The position numbers and the translations under genes were made by a program. This document shows, piece by piece, positions 2,550 through 9,953 of a stretch of 64,000 nucleotides of DNA (positions are counted from its first letter, which is position 1; every line of letters begins with the position of its first letter). Under the pieces are notes generated by a model. It did not search any database. It saw only the letters and a program-made list of their open reading frames with translations, and was not told the origin of the DNA. Source of the stretch: Fontisphaera persica (lineage in GTDB: Bacteria > Verrucomicrobiota > Verrucomicrobiia > Limisphaerales > Fontisphaeraceae); assembly GCF_024832785.1 (NCBI RefSeq), contig NZ_CP116615.1, forward strand, positions 434,001 to 498,000, in the 5' to 3' direction.

Positions 2550-3791
2550 ATGGCAACTCCCCAATCCACTTCCCAGCGTGTGGCACTGATAGCCGTCACC
2601 GGCATGTCGCCGGCCATTGTCACCGAAACAGTATGGGCGCTGGCTCACGAGAAGCCCGCCATCATCCCTGATGATGTGTATGTGCTCACCACCTCTCGCG
2701 GCGCAGCCGACCTCCGGCGCGAGCTGCTGACCCCGCGCCCGGACCTGCAAGAGCAAACCATCTGGCAGGCCCTCCGCCAGGCCATTCTTGGCGCTCGCGC
2801 CACCAAGGATAAACGCCTGACCCTGCATGACCCCATCTTGCTCACCACCCATGACACCACCCGCGGCCAGCCCCGCCCTCTCGAGGATATACGCACGCCG
2901 GAGGACAACGCCGCCGCGGCGGAAGTCATCCTTGATGAAATCCGCCGCCTCACCGCCAATGATGATTTGCGCCTCATCGCCTCCCTGGCAGGCGGGCGCA
3001 AAACCATGAGCGCGCTCCTGGCCTGCGCCATTTCCCTGCTGGGCCGGAAGGAAGACCGCCTCACCCACGTCCTCGTCAACGAGCCCTTTGACCATCCCGC
3101 TCTGGAGCCGCGTTTCTACTTTCCCACTCCCCAGCCCACCCTCCATAAACTCCAAACTCCGCAGGGCACGCAAACCGTTACCAGCGACCAGGCCATTTTG
3201 CAGCTTGCCGATGTGCCTTTCGTGCCCCTCAGCTACCTTTTCCGTGAGCAACTGGGGCGCTCCCCCGGCCGGTTTGTGGACCTGGTCCGCTCCGCCACCC
3301 AAATGGTCACCGAAACCGCCCAGCCCATCACCCTCAGCTATGATTATAAAACCTACACCGCTTATTTCGATGGCGTGGCAGTGGAACTCATGAACCGGGA
3401 CATTCCCTTTTTTGAATTTCTCTACCACCGCGCCAAAGAAGGGCTGTTGCCTTATAAATACCATGAGGAAGCGGAAAAACCATTTGTGGAATTCCTTGCC
3501 CAATGGATTCCCAAACATCCCGATGTTAATCTGACCCATGGAGGCGGACTCGACTGGGCCAAGAGCCCTCCTGGGAAGGATGATTTTCGCAAACGCCTTA
3601 GCAGCCTCCGGGACCGCATGCACAGGGCGGGCATCGGCTACCTTGTGCAGCGCATTTTTCCGCCTCATGGCCCGCTGGGCATCCCCTTGGGACAGGTCAC
3701 TTTTGAAGATTCACCCACCTCCCAACCCAAAAATCCAAAAAAAAATTTCCAGGTCACGAGCCAAAAACCCCCAAAAAGGGGGGGCTCGTGA
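2550..3791 (+). CDS. CRISPR-associated NE0113-family CARF/ring-nuclease protein with C-terminal winged-helix-like domain
   Basis: The N-terminal 220 residues match the CRISPR-associated NE0113 family (CARF fold, related to Csm6/Csx1 sensors and annotated as ring nucleases). The first strand is ALIAVTGMSPAIVTETVWAL, and the signature SLAGGRKTM, at about residue 145, corresponds to the cyclic-oligoadenylate-binding loop. After a linker, about residues 270-365 look like an OmpR-type winged helix (FDGVAVELMNRDIPFFEFLY, then DDFRKRLSSLRDRM), which is inference. The last 30 residues are low-complexity Lys/Pro. The ATG at 2550 is preferred over an upstream TTG at 2493 because the homologous start falls a few residues after it. 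The gene lies directly upstream of the CRISPR array on the same strand. Likely roles are degrading or sensing the cA4/cA6 messenger of a type III system; no HEPN RxxxxH motif is obvious. An inverted repeat covers the stop codon. Confidence 0.85.
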   Translation: MATPQSTSQRVALIAVTGMSPAIVTETVWALAHEKPAIIPDDVYVLTTSRGAADLRRELLTPRPDLQEQTIWQALRQAILGARATKDKRLTLHDPILLTTHDTTRGQPRPLEDIRTPEDNAAAAEVILDEIRRLTANDDLRLIASLAGGRKTMSALLACAISLLGRKEDRLTHVLVNEPFDHPALEPRFYFPTPQPTLHKLQTPQGTQTVTSDQAILQLADVPFVPLSYLFREQLGRSPGRFVDLVRSATQMVTETAQPITLSYDYKTYTAYFDGVAVELMNRDIPFFEFLYHRAKEGLLPYKYHEEAEKPFVEFLAQWIPKHPDVNLTHGGGLDWAKSPPGKDDFRKRLSSLRDRMHRAGIGYLVQRIFPPHGPLGIPLGQVTFEDSPTSQPKNPKKNFQVTSQKPPKRGGS

Positions 3792-3898
3792 CCTAAGTCA
3801 TAAACCATTGATGGAGAGCAAGATGCTCAAACTTGAGAAAATCTGTATCGTTAAAGAAGCAAACAGCGTGCCAACACAAAAATGGCCTCGTGACCTGG
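3749..3898. repeat. Three-copy inverted motif CCAGGTCACGAG between the CARF gene and the array
   Basis: CCAGGTCACGAG at 3749-3760 has a perfect 12-bp inverse copy at 3887-3898. A nearer inverse copy, part of an 11-bp perfect arm (3783-3793 pairing with 3752-3762), spans the stop codon of the CARF gene. The near pair encloses a second small stem of five C and five G (3768-3772 with 3778-3782) around an A5 loop. The first arm can therefore pair with either partner, giving two mutually exclusive RNA hairpins. There is no U-tract, so it is not a standard intrinsic terminator. It could be an attenuator-like switch or a protein-binding site; function is unknown. Confidence 0.7.
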
Positions 3899-3941
3899 AA
3901 AACACTTGCGCCCTTGCGCCACAATGGGTTACAAAGGTGCT
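3794..3941 (+). promoter_or_regulatory. Probable CRISPR leader
   Basis: This 148-bp non-coding stretch lies between the CARF gene and the first repeat. It is placed at the leader end because the opposite end of the array carries the truncated repeat. It contains a short palindrome (CTCAA-AC-TTGAG, near 3827-3838) and the third copy of the CCAGGTCACGAG motif at 3887-3898. No convincing -35/-10 pair is seen. Confidence 0.6.
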
Positions 3942-6024
3942 GTCGGGAACGCGGTGAATGCCGAAAGGCAATGGAGACCTAATTGTACGTTGGCCAGCCT
4001 CCCGCCGAAGCGGGGAGTCGGGAACGCGGTGAATGCCGAAAGGCAATGGAGACTTATTTCTTGCCCTTGCCCTTGACCGTGGCGGCGACTTGTCGGGAAC
4101 GCGGTGAATGCCGAAAGGCAATGGAGACCCATCGGGGATGAGTGAAGCCGTATCTTCAGCCAGCTGGCGGTCGGGAACGCGGTGAATGCCGAAAGGCAAT
4201 GGAGACCCTGTGAGGCAAGGGTGGTTATTTACCCTTGCCCTTCTGTCGGGAACGCGGTGAATGCCGAAAGGCAATGGAGACTGCATGTTGCAGGGATGCC
4301 TTTGATTGTGACCGCGTCGGGAACGCGGTGAATGCCGAAAGGCAATGGAGACGTCTTCCGCCAGTTGGCGGATTTCATCCGCCTCACTGAGCCGTCGGGA
4401 ACGCGGTGAATGCCGAAAGGCAATGGAGACACTAAGCTCGTAGCCATTGGCCGCCTCTTCTGGAGGGTTGTCGGGAACGCGGTGAATGCCGAAAGGCAAT
4501 GGAGACAAAGCAAAACTTTGGGAGTTGCCTTATGGGGATTTCTTGGGTCGGGAACGCGGTGAATGCCGAAAGGCAATGGAGACAAGCGGGGGTGAACGGC
4601 ACGTCCAACGACCGAGTCTTACCGTCGGGAACGCGGTGAATGCCGAAAGGCAATGGAGACTGGTTATTTGCCCTTGCTCTTTGGCGCGGCGGTGCTGGCG
4701 GTCGGGAACGCGGTGAATGCCGAAAGGCAATGGAGACTACTCACTGTGAGTAATCTTTCAGTTTTTCCAAGCGGTGTCGGGAACGCGGTGAATGCCGAAA
4801 GGCAATGGAGACCGTGGAAGGCAAGAAGTTATTTCTTGCCCTTCTTGACTTCGTCGGGAACGCGGTGAATGCCGAAAGGCAATGGAGACTGTGAGGCAAG
4901 GGCTGGTTATTTCTTGCCCTTGCCTTTGAGTCGGGAACGCGGTGAATGCCGAAAGGCAATGGAGACTTGCCTTTGACTTCGGCGGCAACCTGGCGCCGAA
5001 GTCTCCAGTCGGGAACGCGGTGAATGCCGAAAGGCAATGGAGACGACGGTTATTTCTTGCCCTTCTTTGGCGCGGCGGCGTCGGGAACGCGGTGAATGCC
5101 GAAAGGCAATGGAGACGGTTAACGGGACGTTGGCCAGACGCCCGCCGAAACGCGGGTCGGGAACGCGGTGAATGCCGAAAGGCAATGGAGACGCAAGAAG
5201 CACTACTTCTTCTTCTTGGCCTTGGCGGCCTTGTCGGGAACGCGGTGAATGCCGAAAGGCAATGGAGACGACCTTGGTACCCGTTGCGGCCGCCAGGCGT
5301 TCGGCCTGGTCGGGAACGCGGTGAATGCCGAAAGGCAATGGAGACGCCTTGCCGGCTTTGTTGGCTTTGGCGGAGATGCTCCGGTCGGGAACGCGGTGAA
5401 TGCCGAAAGGCAATGGAGACGGAAGGCCAAGGCAAGACCTATTTCTTGCCCTTGGCGGCGTCGGGAACGCGGTGAATGCCGAAAGGCAATGGAGACGGAA
5501 CGTAACCGTCACTGGATTGCACGACCATTCCGTCTCGTCGGGAACGCGGTGAATGCCGAAAGGCAATGGAGACCAGTGATGTACCACTGGGCTTCCCCAT
5601 CGGGAATGAGGCTGGTCGGGAACGCGGTGAATGCCGAAAGGCAATGGAGACCGGGACGCCCTGGATAACGACCTTGACCCCGGCGGCCTGCGGTCGGGAA
5701 CGCGGTGAATGCCGAAAGGCAATGGAGACGGGTTAAATCATACAAACAACTGGTGTTGCTCTCAGTAAGTCGGGAACGCGGTGAATGCCGAAAGGCAATG
5801 GAGACCCTAAAAATACCATACTTGTTCATGTACCATCCGGGCCGTCGGGAACGCGGTGAATGCCGAAAGGCAATGGAGACTTGATAATTTCAACGGGGTG
5901 GTCTGGCTCTATCCAGATTTCGTCGGGAACGCGGTGAATGCCGAAAGGCAATGGAGACGATCATGCGGCGGACGCGGTGATCGTCGTTGGTGAATTGTCG
6001 GGAACGCGGTGAATGCCGAAAGGC
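3942..6024 (+). CRISPR. CRISPR array, 27 full 37-bp repeats plus one truncated repeat, 27 spacers
   Basis: The 37-bp repeat begins GTCGGGAACGCGG and ends GGCAATGGAGAC, with an internal TGCC-GAAA-GGCA mini-hairpin. Repeats start at 3942, 4017, 4092, 4170, 4245, 4316, 4394, 4470, 4547, 4624, 4701, 4776, 4853, 4930, 5008, 5080, 5156, 5233, 5309, 5384, 5460, 5537, 5615, 5693, 5769, 5844 and 5922. A last copy at 5997 matches for 28 nt and then degenerates. All 27 full copies look identical. Spacers are 34-41 bp. The degenerate right end puts the leader on the left, so the crRNA has + polarity and its 5' handle would end GGAGAC. Type III is suggested by the neighbouring CARF gene and by spacers antisense to coding sequence; no cas1, cas2, cas6 or cas10 is present in the window. 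Open frames translating the repeat in all six frames are artefacts. Confidence 0.98.
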
Positions 6025-6319
6025 GGAGAAGTGTTCAGTGTTCAGTTGGCAGTGTTCAGTAGGGAAGGGTTGTCGGCGGCGTTGTGGGAAGGGGAGCCGT
6101 GGAGAAGTTTCAAGTTTCAAGTTTCAAGTTGGAAGTGAAGAGGCGCCCCCTTTGCTCATGGCGGTAGGGGGGGACATCTTGAAACTTGACACTTCACACT
6201 TGAAACTCCCCTCCGCAGGAGGGGAAAAACTGAAAACTCCCCCACACGCCGCCAGGCGTGCAGGGCGGCTCCTTGAAACTTGACCCTTGAAACTTGTAAC
6301 TCCCTCCGCAGGAGGGGCA

Positions 6320-6446
6320 GTGAATGCCGAAAGGCGGAGAAGTGTTCAGTGTTCAGTTGGCAGTGTTCAGTAGGGAAGGGTTGTCGGCGGCGTTGGGGGA
6401 AGGGGAGCCGTAGGGAAGTTTCAAGTTTCAAGTTTCAAGTTGGAAG
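6320..6446 (+). repeat. 127-bp direct duplication carrying a CRISPR-repeat fragment
   Basis: The segment 6320-6446 repeats 6009-6135 at a constant offset of 311 bp with only a few substitutions. Its first 16 nt (GTGAATGCCGAAAGGC) are the 3' part of the truncated terminal CRISPR repeat, so the duplication copied the array edge together with the flanking repeat mosaic. Confidence 0.9.
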
Positions 6447-6547
6447 CGGCAGCCCCTTCCCCTCGCTTAAGGCAACCGGAAGGACTGAACACTGAACACT
6501 GCAAACTGAACACTCCCCAAACGCCGTCAGGCGTAAAGGGGCGTTTG

Positions 6548-6650
6548 AAGTTTCAAGTTTCAAGTTGGAAGTGAAGAGGCGCCCCCTTTGCTCATGGCGG
6601 TAGGGGGGGACATCTTGAAACTTGACACTTCACACTTGAAACTCCCCTCC
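6548..6650 (+). repeat. 103-bp perfect direct duplication
   Basis: The segment 6548-6650 is identical to 6112-6214 (offset 436 bp), including the run GGCGGTAGGGGGGGACATC and the flanking TTCAAGT / ACTTGAAACT arms. Perfect identity suggests a recent duplication or gene conversion. Confidence 0.92.
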
Positions 6651-6770
6651 AACGGAGGGCAACGACTGAACACTGAACACTGCAAACTGCACACTCCACC
6701 GAAACCCCGCCAGGCGTGCAGGGGCAAACTCCCCTCCGCAGGAGGGGGAGGATTTTGCTCTGCCCCAAAA

Positions 6771-9700
6771 TCAATCGGCCACGGGAAGGAAAAGATTGGC
6801 GGTGCAACCGCCCTCGGGTGAATTGAAGACTTCAATCCAACCGCCAATTTGTTTCATGCCGCCATAGGCGGCGGCGAGGCCCATGCCGGTGCCCTGGCCA
6901 ATGTCTTTGGTGGTGAAGAACGGTTCAAACAAATGGGCTTGAGCTTTTTCGGAAAGGCCCTGGCCTTTGTCTTTGATTTGAATTCGGACAAAAGGCTGGG
7001 GCGGTGAGGGCTGGGACGCAGCGGGGGAAACCGGCGGAGGCGGGGAGCGCAGCACTGGCTGTATTTCCATTTCCACCAAGGCAGCCGCCGGGCTGGCTTG
7101 CAGGGCGTTATCCAGCACGGTGGTGAGGGCTTGCTCCAACATGTGGGCATCGGCCTTGATGAGGGGCACTTCGCCTTTCCAGGTGACGCGCACGCGGCCG
7201 GGGGGATAGTGGGCCAAATGGCTGGGAATGAATTGGCGCAGGTCCAAGGTTCCCATGCGCAGCCAGTGGCGCTGGCCATAGGCGAGCAGTTGCGCGACGA
7301 TGCGGGCCGATTTGCTGATGGCCTCCTCGATATAGGCCACGTGACTGCGCACTTCCTGCGGGTTGTTCCATTCTTCCCGCAGCAGGGCGGCGCTGGATTG
7401 GATGGCTTGAAGCTGATTGTTCAGGTGGTGGGCGGTGCCGGCGGCCATCTGGCCGATGGTTTCCTGCTGTTTACGGGCCGAGGCGGCCTGCTCCAGCCGC
7501 AGGCGTTCAGCCATGACCTGCTCCAACTCGCGGGTGCGCTCGGCCAGGCGGGCGCTTAACAGGGCATTGCGCCGTTCCAGCAATCGGACTCGCCAGCGGT
7601 AACCGCCATAAATGCCGGCAGTGGCCAGGCCCAGCAGGGCAGCGTAAAACCAGGTGGTTTGGTAAAAGTAGGGTTGGATGATCAATTCCACTCCCGCCCC
7701 TGCGGCGCTCCATTGGCCGTGCCCATCGTCGGCGGTGACGCGGAATTCAAACCGGCCTGGCCCCAGGTTGGCGTAGGTGGCGGTCCGGCGGTGGTACGCC
7801 TCAATCCATCCGGCATCCACGCCGGATAACAGGTAACGATGCCTGACTTTCTCCGGCTGCCGGAAACTGAGGCCTGCAAAATCAATTTCCAGGACGCGGG
7901 AGCCGGGGGGCAGCTCTACCACGGGGGCTACGGGATAATCGCGACCGTTGACACGGATGCGATCGATGACCACGCGTGGTGGGGTGAAGGTGGAGGACAG
8001 GTTTCTGGGGTCAGCAACGGCCAGCCCGCGGCGGGTGAGAAAGATAAGGCGGCCATCGGAAGTCTGGCAGCCGGGGGATTGCCGGCCACCCAAGCATTCC
8101 ATGCTTAAAAGGCCGTCGCTCTGGCTGAACATCAGGGGGGTGGGAAGTGGCCGTTCACCCCGCCAATGCGCCAGCAGCAAGGCGGTTTCCACGCGAAAGA
8201 TGGTCCAGGGGGTGGTGTACCACAGGAAGCCTTGTTCATCCAAGGCCAGCCAATAAACATGGTACGTGGGGAAGCCTTGCGAAGGCTTATAATGCCGCCA
8301 AACTCCATCCCAGCGGCAGACGATGCCCTGGGCGGTGCCCAGCCAAAGTCTGCCTGCGCGGTCTTCCCTGATGTAATAAACCAGGGCCGCCGGGAAACCC
8401 TGGGCTTGGCCGTAATAGTTGGTGGTCTCGGCAGAAAGATGGTACAGGCCGTTTTGAGTGCCAATCCACAGCGAGCCGTCCCGGGCGGCGTGAAGAGAGC
8501 GGATTACCGGCTGCGCCTGCTCCGTGGTTACCGGCAAATCCACCGCAACAAACTGTCCATTGGTCAAGCGGCACAAACCGGCTTCGGTACCGGCCCAGAG
8601 CACGCCTTGGCGGTCTTCCGTCACTGCGAAGATATTAAGGCTGCTTAATCCATTGGCCTTGCTGTAAGTCGTGGTGGATTGTTCTCCCTGGTAACAGATT
8701 AGGCCGTCCCGGCGGGTGCCCACCCACAACCGGCCTTGGCGGTCGGGGTAAAGGAGGCTAATCATGGCCTGCCGTTGGTAACGGGGCAGGGGGCGGATAG
8801 AGCCGTTATCCCAGGCATACACCTCGCCCTTGAAGGTGCCCAAAAGGAATAGGTTGGTGGCGGTTTCGGCCAGGGTGATGACTTCTTCATCACGCAGCCC
8901 ATGATCTGAGGAAATCGTTAGAAAAGTGCGGTTTTGCAGGCAATGCAGGCCGTTGCCCGCGCCAATCCAGAAATTGGCCTCGCGGTCTTCAAAGAAGGAA
9001 AAAACGCTGGTGTTACGCAGGCCGGGGATTTCATCTTCTGCGATGACTTTTCCCTGACGCAGGCGGCGCAAACCCGTGGTGGTGCCAATCCAGACGGTGC
9101 CGTGGCGGTCCTCAAGAATGGCGCGTACCCGCACTTCACCCAGCGCGGGGATGAATTGAGCAGCGCTGCGTCCCCGGTCGCTGGTCACCTGGAATAACCC
9201 GCTGTCGGTGCCTGCCCATAGATGGCCTTCAGGAGCTTCCGCCAACGCAAAGATTTGGCGGCTGGAGAGATGGGGCACAGGCACGGCGCGGGGAAGGGAG
9301 GCATCCATGGGGCCGAAAAGGCCACGGTCGGTGCCCACCCATAAATTCCCCTGCTTGTCCTCCCGCAGGCTCCAGAAAACGGTGTTGGTGGCCAGGCCGC
9401 GAATGGTGATGGCTTCGAGCCCTCCTGTGCTCCAGAGGTGCAGCCCCCGGTCACTTAAGACCCACAGGCCGCCCCGAGCACGTGGGGCAAAGGCACGCAC
9501 GGAATTGCCCATCAGGCCGGTGTCGGGTCCGAAACGTTGGAAGAGCCCTTGATGATAGGTGATTAATCCGCCTCCTTCGCTGCCGGCCCAGAGAGCGCCG
9601 GAGGGGCCAAGGCTGAGGACAGTGAGGAAAGGACGGTTGAGAGCATCCTGGTTTTTGGGGGTGAAGGCGAAGAAACGCTCGCCGTTGAAGCGGGCCAGAC

Positions 9701-9953
9701 CGTATTCCGTGGCGGCCCATAGGTAGCCATCCGGGGTTTGGTGCACCGCGCGGACGGTGGCATGAGGCAGCCCGTGGGCAATACCCCAATGGCGGTGTTC
9801 GTATTCTGTCAATTTATAGGCGGGGTGAAGGGCGAAGAGGGGCAGGGCCAACAAAACAAACCCCACCATTCCCAACGTTTTAGCGTGGAAAAAGACGGCC
9901 TTCTTCCTCAGGCCAAAGGGGTTTGGAGGCCGCTTTGCCATCGGAGGTGTCAA
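6771..9953 (-). CDS. Sensor histidine kinase with Reg_prop beta-propeller sensor
   Basis: This 1,060-residue membrane sensor kinase has a single N-terminal hydrophobic segment (about residues 28-43). It is followed by about 600 residues of two-component regulator propeller repeats (recurring W(I/V)GT..GL.R pattern), a Y_Y_Y domain (about 690-755; FAGLSFRQPEKVRHRYLL), a second membrane segment (about 770-790; TTWFYAALLGLATAGIYGGY) and a cytoplasmic kinase. The phospho-accepting His sits in AAGTAHHLNNQLQAIQSS (about 843). The ATPase shows LDNALQAS, DKGQGL and GTGMGLAAAYGG. There is no receiver or HTH, so it must signal to a separate regulator, none of which is adjacent. In Bacteroidota such propellers sense oligosaccharides or drive polysaccharide use; here the ligand is unknown. 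A start at 9941 (MAKRPP) is also possible. Confidence 0.93.
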   Translation of the reverse strand: MTPPMAKRPPNPFGLRKKAVFFHAKTLGMVGFVLLALPLFALHPAYKLTEYEHRHWGIAHGLPHATVRAVHQTPDGYLWAATEYGLARFNGERFFAFTPKNQDALNRPFLTVLSLGPSGALWAGSEGGGLITYHQGLFQRFGPDTGLMGNSVRAFAPRARGGLWVLSDRGLHLWSTGGLEAITIRGLATNTVFWSLREDKQGNLWVGTDRGLFGPMDASLPRAVPVPHLSSRQIFALAEAPEGHLWAGTDSGLFQVTSDRGRSAAQFIPALGEVRVRAILEDRHGTVWIGTTTGLRRLRQGKVIAEDEIPGLRNTSVFSFFEDREANFWIGAGNGLHCLQNRTFLTISSDHGLRDEEVITLAETATNLFLLGTFKGEVYAWDNGSIRPLPRYQRQAMISLLYPDRQGRLWVGTRRDGLICYQGEQSTTTYSKANGLSSLNIFAVTEDRQGVLWAGTEAGLCRLTNGQFVAVDLPVTTEQAQPVIRSLHAARDGSLWIGTQNGLYHLSAETTNYYGQAQGFPAALVYYIREDRAGRLWLGTAQGIVCRWDGVWRHYKPSQGFPTYHVYWLALDEQGFLWYTTPWTIFRVETALLLAHWRGERPLPTPLMFSQSDGLLSMECLGGRQSPGCQTSDGRLIFLTRRGLAVADPRNLSSTFTPPRVVIDRIRVNGRDYPVAPVVELPPGSRVLEIDFAGLSFRQPEKVRHRYLLSGVDAGWIEAYHRRTATYANLGPGRFEFRVTADDGHGQWSAAGAGVELIIQPYFYQTTWFYAALLGLATAGIYGGYRWRVRLLERRNALLSARLAERTRELEQVMAERLRLEQAASARKQQETIGQMAAGTAHHLNNQLQAIQSSAALLREEWNNPQEVRSHVAYIEEAISKSARIVAQLLAYGQRHWLRMGTLDLRQFIPSHLAHYPPGRVRVTWKGEVPLIKADAHMLEQALTTVLDNALQASPAAALVEMEIQPVLRSPPPPVSPAASQPSPPQPFVRIQIKDKGQGLSEKAQAHLFEPFFTTKDIGQGTGMGLAAAYGGMKQIGGWIEVFNSPEGGCTANLFLPVAD

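Follow-up and report, generated by a model that had tools for sequence, protein, structure and literature searches.

Spacers of four CRISPR arrays in Fontisphaera persica read as the antisense memory of two small invader proteins

Introduction

CRISPR spacers of no known source are the rule, and single spacers are usually unreadable. The array studied here raises the question of what its spacers record, since three of them had been read, from the letters alone, as pieces of one continuous 28-residue peptide of an invader protein. The array lies in a stretch of 64,000 nt of the Fontisphaera persica genome (positions 434001-498000 of the 4.73-Mb single contig), hereafter called the window, whose numbering is used below.

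Results and Discussion

Four arrays and a type III-B system

The window array (L011; 3942..6033, plus strand) contains 27 exact 37-nt repeats and 27 spacers of 34-41 nt, and ends with a degenerate 28th repeat copy from position 5997 (plus strand). It belongs to a family of four arrays with 166 spacers in all (27 in L011, 56 in L012, 36 in L014 and 47 in L015), and a pattern search of the genome gave 166 intact repeats (130 in forward and 36 in reverse orientation), the common repeat of L014 being a two-base variant of the 37-nt repeat. A nearly identical 160-nt leader side (3782..3941, plus strand, in the window) is found 5' of all four arrays, which also share the same degenerate last repeat. 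Among the 387 genomes searched with the 37-nt repeat, only its own genome gave matches.

The genes adjoining L014, called by PADLOC for Cas10, Cmr and CARF among ORFs of at least 150 aa, are Cas10, Cmr3, Cmr4, Cmr6, Cmr1, Csx1 (CARF-HEPN), CARF-PDDEXK and Cas1, Cas10 being seen only as a 224-aa piece because the locus ends within the gene, and the genome as a whole gives three RAMP matches. The association of Cas10/Cmr2 with Cmr RAMP subunits identifies the system as type III-B. Accessory nucleases predicted to depend on cyclic oligoadenylate are present by family match, Csx1 and CARF-PDDEXK at L014 and Csm6/NE0113 at the window array, where the gene of the Csm6 / cas_NE0113 family (2550..3791, plus strand; match over residues 12-227 of the scanned frame 2553-3791) lies directly 5' of the leader. 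The Cas1 next to the array is an unfused frame of 374 aa, and neither a reverse transcriptase nor an RT-Cas1 was found in the genome with the profiles PF00078 and TIGR04416, both of which do give matches among 14 control genomes (in 3 each). A second CRISPR locus, carrying Cas9 together with a Cas1 of its own, is located at 6369-10702 of L016.

Three overlapping spacers and their extension to the four arrays

The opposite-strand translations of spacer 6 (L011_6; 4353..4393), spacer 3 (4129..4169) and spacer 22 (5574..5614) are LSEADEIRQLAED, RQLAEDTASLIPD and SLIPDGEAQWYIT, respectively, as the sequence-only reading had given them; spacer 3 ends in a partial codon GG for which only Gly is possible, so that it covers RQLAEDTASLIPD(G). 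Both overlaps differ by synonymous changes only, as had been noted: RQLAED is written CGC CAA CTG GCG GAA GAC in one spacer and CGC CAG CTG GCT GAA GAT in the other, and SLIPDG is written TCA CTC ATC CCC GAT GG and AGC CTC ATT CCC GAT GGG. Spacers from two other arrays also cover this block, among them L015_8 (EGLTAEEIRQLA) and L012_7 (EEVQQLAEDTASL). At one place L011_6 (LSEADEIRQ) is one residue longer than L015_2 (VEGLEADEIRQ), and the family of this protein, called P1 below, seems from these sequences to differ in length among its members, in steps of whole codons.

Each of the 166 spacers was scored against a profile of P1 and of a second protein, P2, from which its own residues had been left out, with a threshold of 25 bits-like units; P1 and P2 had first been assembled by hand from the same spacers, and the test, although leave-one-out, is not fully independent. 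By this test 92 of the 166 spacers were placed, 64 on P1 and 28 on P2, without exception antisense to the coding strand; one sense placement in the first profile round was gone in later rounds. The placed spacers come from every array (14 of 27 in L011, 31 of 56 in L012, 25 of 36 in L014 and 22 of 47 in L015). In a null set of 830 shuffled spacers, 95% of the scores lay below 22.9 and 99% below 26.7, with a maximum of 33.0. Since the three overlapping spacers reach 51, 40 and 41, their continuity exceeds chance, and the proposal that they derive from different strains of one protein, read in the right frame, is supported and strengthened by the 92 placements. Only 87 of the 92 exceed the shuffled maximum, and a few of the five lowest-scoring placements may therefore be due to chance.

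An unseeded control, in which all spacers were compared with all spacers in six frames, gave 164 matching pairs, of which 125 were minus/minus, 39 matched best in plus/plus and none had mixed orientation, whereas the one shuffled set used for comparison gave no pair. The 39 plus/plus pairs are complementary frames of the same overlaps, partly from the Lys-rich tail of P1. The minus/minus pairs involve 83 spacers, 10 of them outside the 92. By eye, 17 further spacers might be added (L011_4, 9, 10, 17 and 20; L012_5, 12, 25, 43 and 46; L014_7 and 24; L015_17, 21, 26, 27 and 31), which would bring the total to 109 of 166. Further small groups were read as parts of the same two proteins, and one other, unexplained pair stood out: the older spacers L012_41 and L015_40 share a peptide (RVYFGGGIY and WVFYGGGIY) and perhaps come from another invader gene.

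The two reconstructed proteins

P1 is read from Met to stop over about 119 aa. The majority reading of its placed spacers starts with MKKHERV, continues with PRFGGRLANVPLTANWRISLLRFACAAERL and CRDGLEQWRLRR, and ends in a Lys-rich tail, KGKGKK, before the stop codon; every position is covered by 2 to 10 spacers. P2 is roughly 100 aa, in an ORF that is not closed, and reads MGSLNEQM, EVNSAREALAR and RGLEG-DGEAVRCLW up to EDSALSEW-RRN; a single four-residue gap in it carries no placed spacer. An IPTPTFGEC-like motif common to three spacers (L012_43, L015_26 and L015_31) comes, by eye, after RGEI and would fill this gap, and in L014_24 an AAAGGA-like site is seen by eye a few bases 5' of the P2 start codon. 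No spacer bridging the two ORFs was seen among the 166 of the four arrays. The sequence-only reading had thus missed the scale of the record: P1 is readable nearly whole, a second protein is tiled as well, and the bias is strictly one-stranded.

In the window array, all the spacers read on P1 lie on the minus strand relative to the window. In addition to the three overlapping spacers, which both their translation and the leave-one-out profile assign to P1, the profile places spacer 1 (3979..4016; PRFGGRLANVQL), spacer 16 (5117..5155; PRFGGRLANVPLT), spacer 18 (5270..5308; QAERLAAATGTKV), spacer 23 (5652..5692; QAAGVKVVIQGVP), spacer 5 (4282..4315; AVTIKGIPATC) and spacer 14 (4967..5007; WRLRRQVAAEVKG). 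Spacer 19 (5346..5383; RSISAKANKAGK) falls in the C-terminal region with a score of 28, below the null maximum. The C-terminus itself is read in spacer 2 (4054..4091; VAATVKGKGKK and stop, by the profile), in spacer 15 (5045..5079; AAAPKKGKK and stop, score 29, below the null maximum), and, with 3' flank after the stop, in spacer 12 (4813..4852; EVKKGKK, a weak score of 25) and in spacer 13 (4890..4929; KGKGKK), where a hairpin spans the stop codon. Spacer 4 (4207..4244; KGKGK, stop and 3' flank) was placed there by eye, under the profile threshold, and so were spacers 10, 17 and 20.

Coding signal, strain diversity and order in the arrays

The 303 overlaps of at least 15 nt between placed spacers have a mean nucleotide identity of 0.70 (0.22 to 1.0, the very low values being due in part to indels and to a few doubtful placements), and only 4 are identical. 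Differences fall on 25.9, 16.4 and 46.5% of the first, second and third codon positions, respectively. Reading in the called frame makes 815 of the 1495 differing codons synonymous, whereas the two shifted frames give 241 of 1608 and 98 of 1564; the third-position and synonymous excess is thus confined to the frame that had been proposed. Because the overlaps are about 70% identical with changes concentrated at third codon positions, many strains must have been sampled. Placed spacers lie closer to the leader than unplaced ones (mean relative position 0.39 versus 0.64 of the array length, p=7e-8), and none of the last 12 spacers of L015 is placed. The window array holds 14 P1 and no P2 spacers, compared with 50 P1 and 28 P2 spacers in the other three arrays (p=0.005), and the arrays therefore record different episodes or chances.

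RNA structure of the targeted sequence

The folding energy of the 92 placed spacers is lower than that of controls in which synonymous codons were resampled (mean z -0.87, t-test p=5.5e-9; z below -2 for 18 of the 92), whereas 400 windows of host genes within the 64-kb stretch give a mean z of -0.06. Against dinucleotide shuffles, placed spacers have a mean z of -1.19 and the 74 unplaced ones -0.48 (p=7e-4). Of the two strands, the sense strand has a slight edge in folding stability (51 versus 37, p=0.03). This excess of hairpins in coding RNA hints at a parasite with an RNA genome. The hairpins are in excess but are not shown to be conserved in place: in overlapping spacers, changed predicted pairs remain pairable in 27.4% of cases (26.5-39.3% in slid controls), changes on both sides of predicted pairs amount to 7.3% (3.4-8.4% in slid controls), and within stems of at least 5 pairs the share of changed pairs that remain pairable is 30.2% (25.0-36.9% in slid controls). 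Since changed pairs were kept no more often than in the controls, conserved stems were rejected as a general claim. By eye, single places show good-looking stems, at nt 23-49 of P1 (with G-U variants) and at nt 242-257 of P2 (with GC/AT and CG/TA variants).

Search for the invader

To be confirmed as a target, an invader protein holding the three blocks in order had been expected from a tblastn search of the 28-residue peptide. The search returned no match from phages and a single match from plasmids (E=7), and gave no target; the proposal that part of an invader protein can be rebuilt from immune memory thus stands for the peptide, which is real according to the spacers of the other arrays, and stops short of its source. 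More generally, no convincing relative of P1 or P2 was found in the collections searched, i.e., 50,697 phage records, 72,556 plasmids (with P1 as query), IMG/VR and 84,980 species genomes. P1 gave four matches at E 4-5 in phages and 17 in plasmids (best E 4), none of them a convincing relative, and P2 gave no match in phages. In IMG/VR, P2 found nothing and P1 found a single locus, with 38% identity over residues 2-53 inside a larger frame and EEIRQLAED in common, which was judged a chance match. The same collection yielded 5 relatives of the MS2 replicase used as a control query, and it does hold RNA phages. Mosaic alignments A1 and A2, each represented by two peptide patterns only, gave 110 and 15 pattern stretches in IMG/VR and no relative, and three degenerate patterns gave none. 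In the species genomes, one scan matched 352 stretches with no relative among them and a further scan matched 2, where about 2 are expected by a rough count; the one of these two that was inspected (L039) falls in a hairpin in the interval separating a receptor gene from its neighbour.

In 288 genomes of the phylum, P1 matched in 8 at E<=0.01, its own included. The best outside match (G123, E=1.2e-6) has an internal stop and runs over the end of an amidotransferase-like frame (by eye), and was judged due to chance; the other match examined from the seven outside genomes (L028) falls, by eye, in an excinuclease-like frame. The P2 alignment matched only its own genome at E<=0.001. In the host genome, every one of the 26 P1 matches listed at E<=10 falls inside one of the four array regions, and a chromosomal source was therefore rejected. 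Neither protein matched a family of Pfam or NCBIfam; PHROGs gave one match at E=0.084, too weak to be useful, and PDB nothing better than E=1.2. The array DNA itself has three short matches in phages (best E 0.2). Leviviricetes, considered as a possible target, carry maturation, coat and RdRp genes; on inspection of the spacer clusters, none was recognised as an RNA-dependent RNA polymerase (RdRp).

Nature of the record

With their common coding frame, strictly antisense orientation, diversity of strains and concentration on the leader side, the spacers are read as the type III-B immune memory of one family of hypervariable invaders that was encountered repeatedly. We give this reading a probability of about 0.9, which covers the shared invader and the type III memory as such, the DNA or RNA nature of the invader being graded apart. 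We propose that independent acquisitions from many related strains would have tiled the two small genes, which would be linked on one molecule. The crRNAs would pair with the P1 and P2 transcripts, the Cmr complex would bind them, and Cas10 would make the cyclic oligoadenylate to which the CARF nucleases (Csx1, CARF-PDDEXK) respond. Spacers of the other orientation, or from genes transcribed late or weakly, would give no protection and be lost, and in this proposal only antisense spacers in two genes remain because the non-protecting ones have disappeared. Variants would escape, and the array would be renewed from the leader side. The strand bias would then come from selection for RNA-targeting crRNAs. 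That low-complexity or palindromic sequence produced the continuity of the peptide by coincidence is hardly credible; the Lys-rich C-terminal spacers are of low complexity and some also match in the complementary frame (the 39 plus/plus pairs), but the shuffled set gave no pair, 87 of 92 placements exceed the null maximum and the third-position pattern is that of a coding sequence.

Spacers acquired without a reverse transcriptase are expected from DNA of both strands. The strict antisense orientation seen here is probably due to selection on the surviving spacers, as in Thermus, which in our analysis is the best-supported account. In Thermus thermophilus, which has no reverse transcriptase, the surviving type III spacers against phage phiFa are strongly strand-biased and confined to a narrow early region through selection (PMC7515739).

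Regarding the invader itself, we lean slightly towards a family of DNA phages or plasmids, in which P1 and P2 would belong to a larger genome and be transcribed early or strongly, the bias and the narrow location being produced purely by selection. The lack of a reverse transcriptase, the unfused Cas1, the same pattern with a DNA phage in Thermus (PMC7515739) and the AAAGGA-like site shortly before the P2 start codon, seen by eye in L014_24, all favor it, whereas the unusual hairpin excess and the absence of P1 and P2 from phages, plasmids (P1 only), IMG/VR and the species genomes speak against it. A phage with the usual set of genes should leave shared clusters in more of them, and only the L012_41/L015_40 pair stood out, which counts against the main reading of the record. 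That only two small ORFs are hit could have either of two causes: a DNA element may transcribe these two early, or the element may be so small that they form most of it, and in the latter case the hairpins would suggest an RNA replicon. Such a replicon, which could be a small RNA phage or a viroid-like RNA of the Obelisk kind, its hairpin-rich genome carrying two short ORFs, is a less likely possibility. In its favor are the low folding energies of the placed spacers relative to codon-resampled controls, with host genes near zero, their greater structure compared with unplaced spacers, the slight advantage of the sense strand, the absence of P1 and P2 from the DNA collections searched and the published matches of CRISPR spacers to Obelisks and other circular RNAs (PMC13096302). 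The two ORFs, at about 119 and 100 codons, would fit on a circular RNA of about 1 kb, which is all that their length says. Against it, no reverse transcriptase that could convert RNA into spacers was found, and integration of RNA by an enzyme of the host genome was rejected since neither PF00078 nor TIGR04416 matches; compensatory change gives the stems no support, no polymerase cluster was recognised, and IMG/VR holds RNA phages yet no P1 or P2. It is doubtful that the arrays are the first trace of a family of hairpin-rich RNA replicons with two proteins, remembered antisense by a type III-B system devoid of reverse transcriptase. A repeated, non-viral gene family of neighbouring cells or of a host plasmid (e.g., a conjugated or naturally transformed element) is improbable: the variety at each position would fit a multicopy family too, but no relative occurs in the 288 phylum genomes beyond matches judged due to chance, nor in the species genomes, and the strict antisense bias implies selection for interference.

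Comparison with known systems and significance

The system read here resembles that of Thermus in the lack of reverse transcriptase, the very strong strand bias and the crowding of spacers in a narrow transcribed region, attributed to selection for functional spacers; the Thermus study (PMC7515739) deals with one known phage strain, whereas our arrays record dozens of divergent variants of an uncatalogued invader, with at least 92 of 166 spacers in two small ORFs. As in the RT-linked type III-B arrays of Arthrospira, the spacers are almost without database match, but the Arthrospira arrays come with a reverse transcriptase (PMC5513706), while here none was found and the spacers match each other and rebuild proteins. 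The likeness to Obelisks and other circular RNAs lies in small coding elements, targeted by spacers of RNA-targeting systems and rich in RNA structure; Obelisks have been described from RNA sequence and encode Oblin-1, and the authors of PMC13096302 tie their uptake as spacers to a reverse transcriptase, whereas ours are read from spacers alone in a genome where none was detected. A search of titles and abstract openings found no report of such a reconstruction, which does not prove its absence.

In this single genome the memory is redundant enough that one protein can be spelled out nearly whole, and a second for the most part, ahead of any sighting of the invader. P1 and P2 can serve as protein queries for finding it, and the host is named as a place to look. 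The arrays also offer a clean example from nature of a type III system whose spacers are strictly biased to one RNA strand although no reverse transcriptase was detected and, if the target is RNA, would bear directly on how such systems record RNA parasites.

On the 3' side of the window array, positions 6006-6747 contain imperfect direct repeats of 130 nt (at 6006 and 6317) and of 132 nt (at 6107 and 6543), together with further short repeats, and the first part of this region is found behind all four arrays. Next to it, on the minus strand (6771-9953), is a frame of 1060 aa for a hybrid sensor that combines propeller repeats with a histidine kinase.
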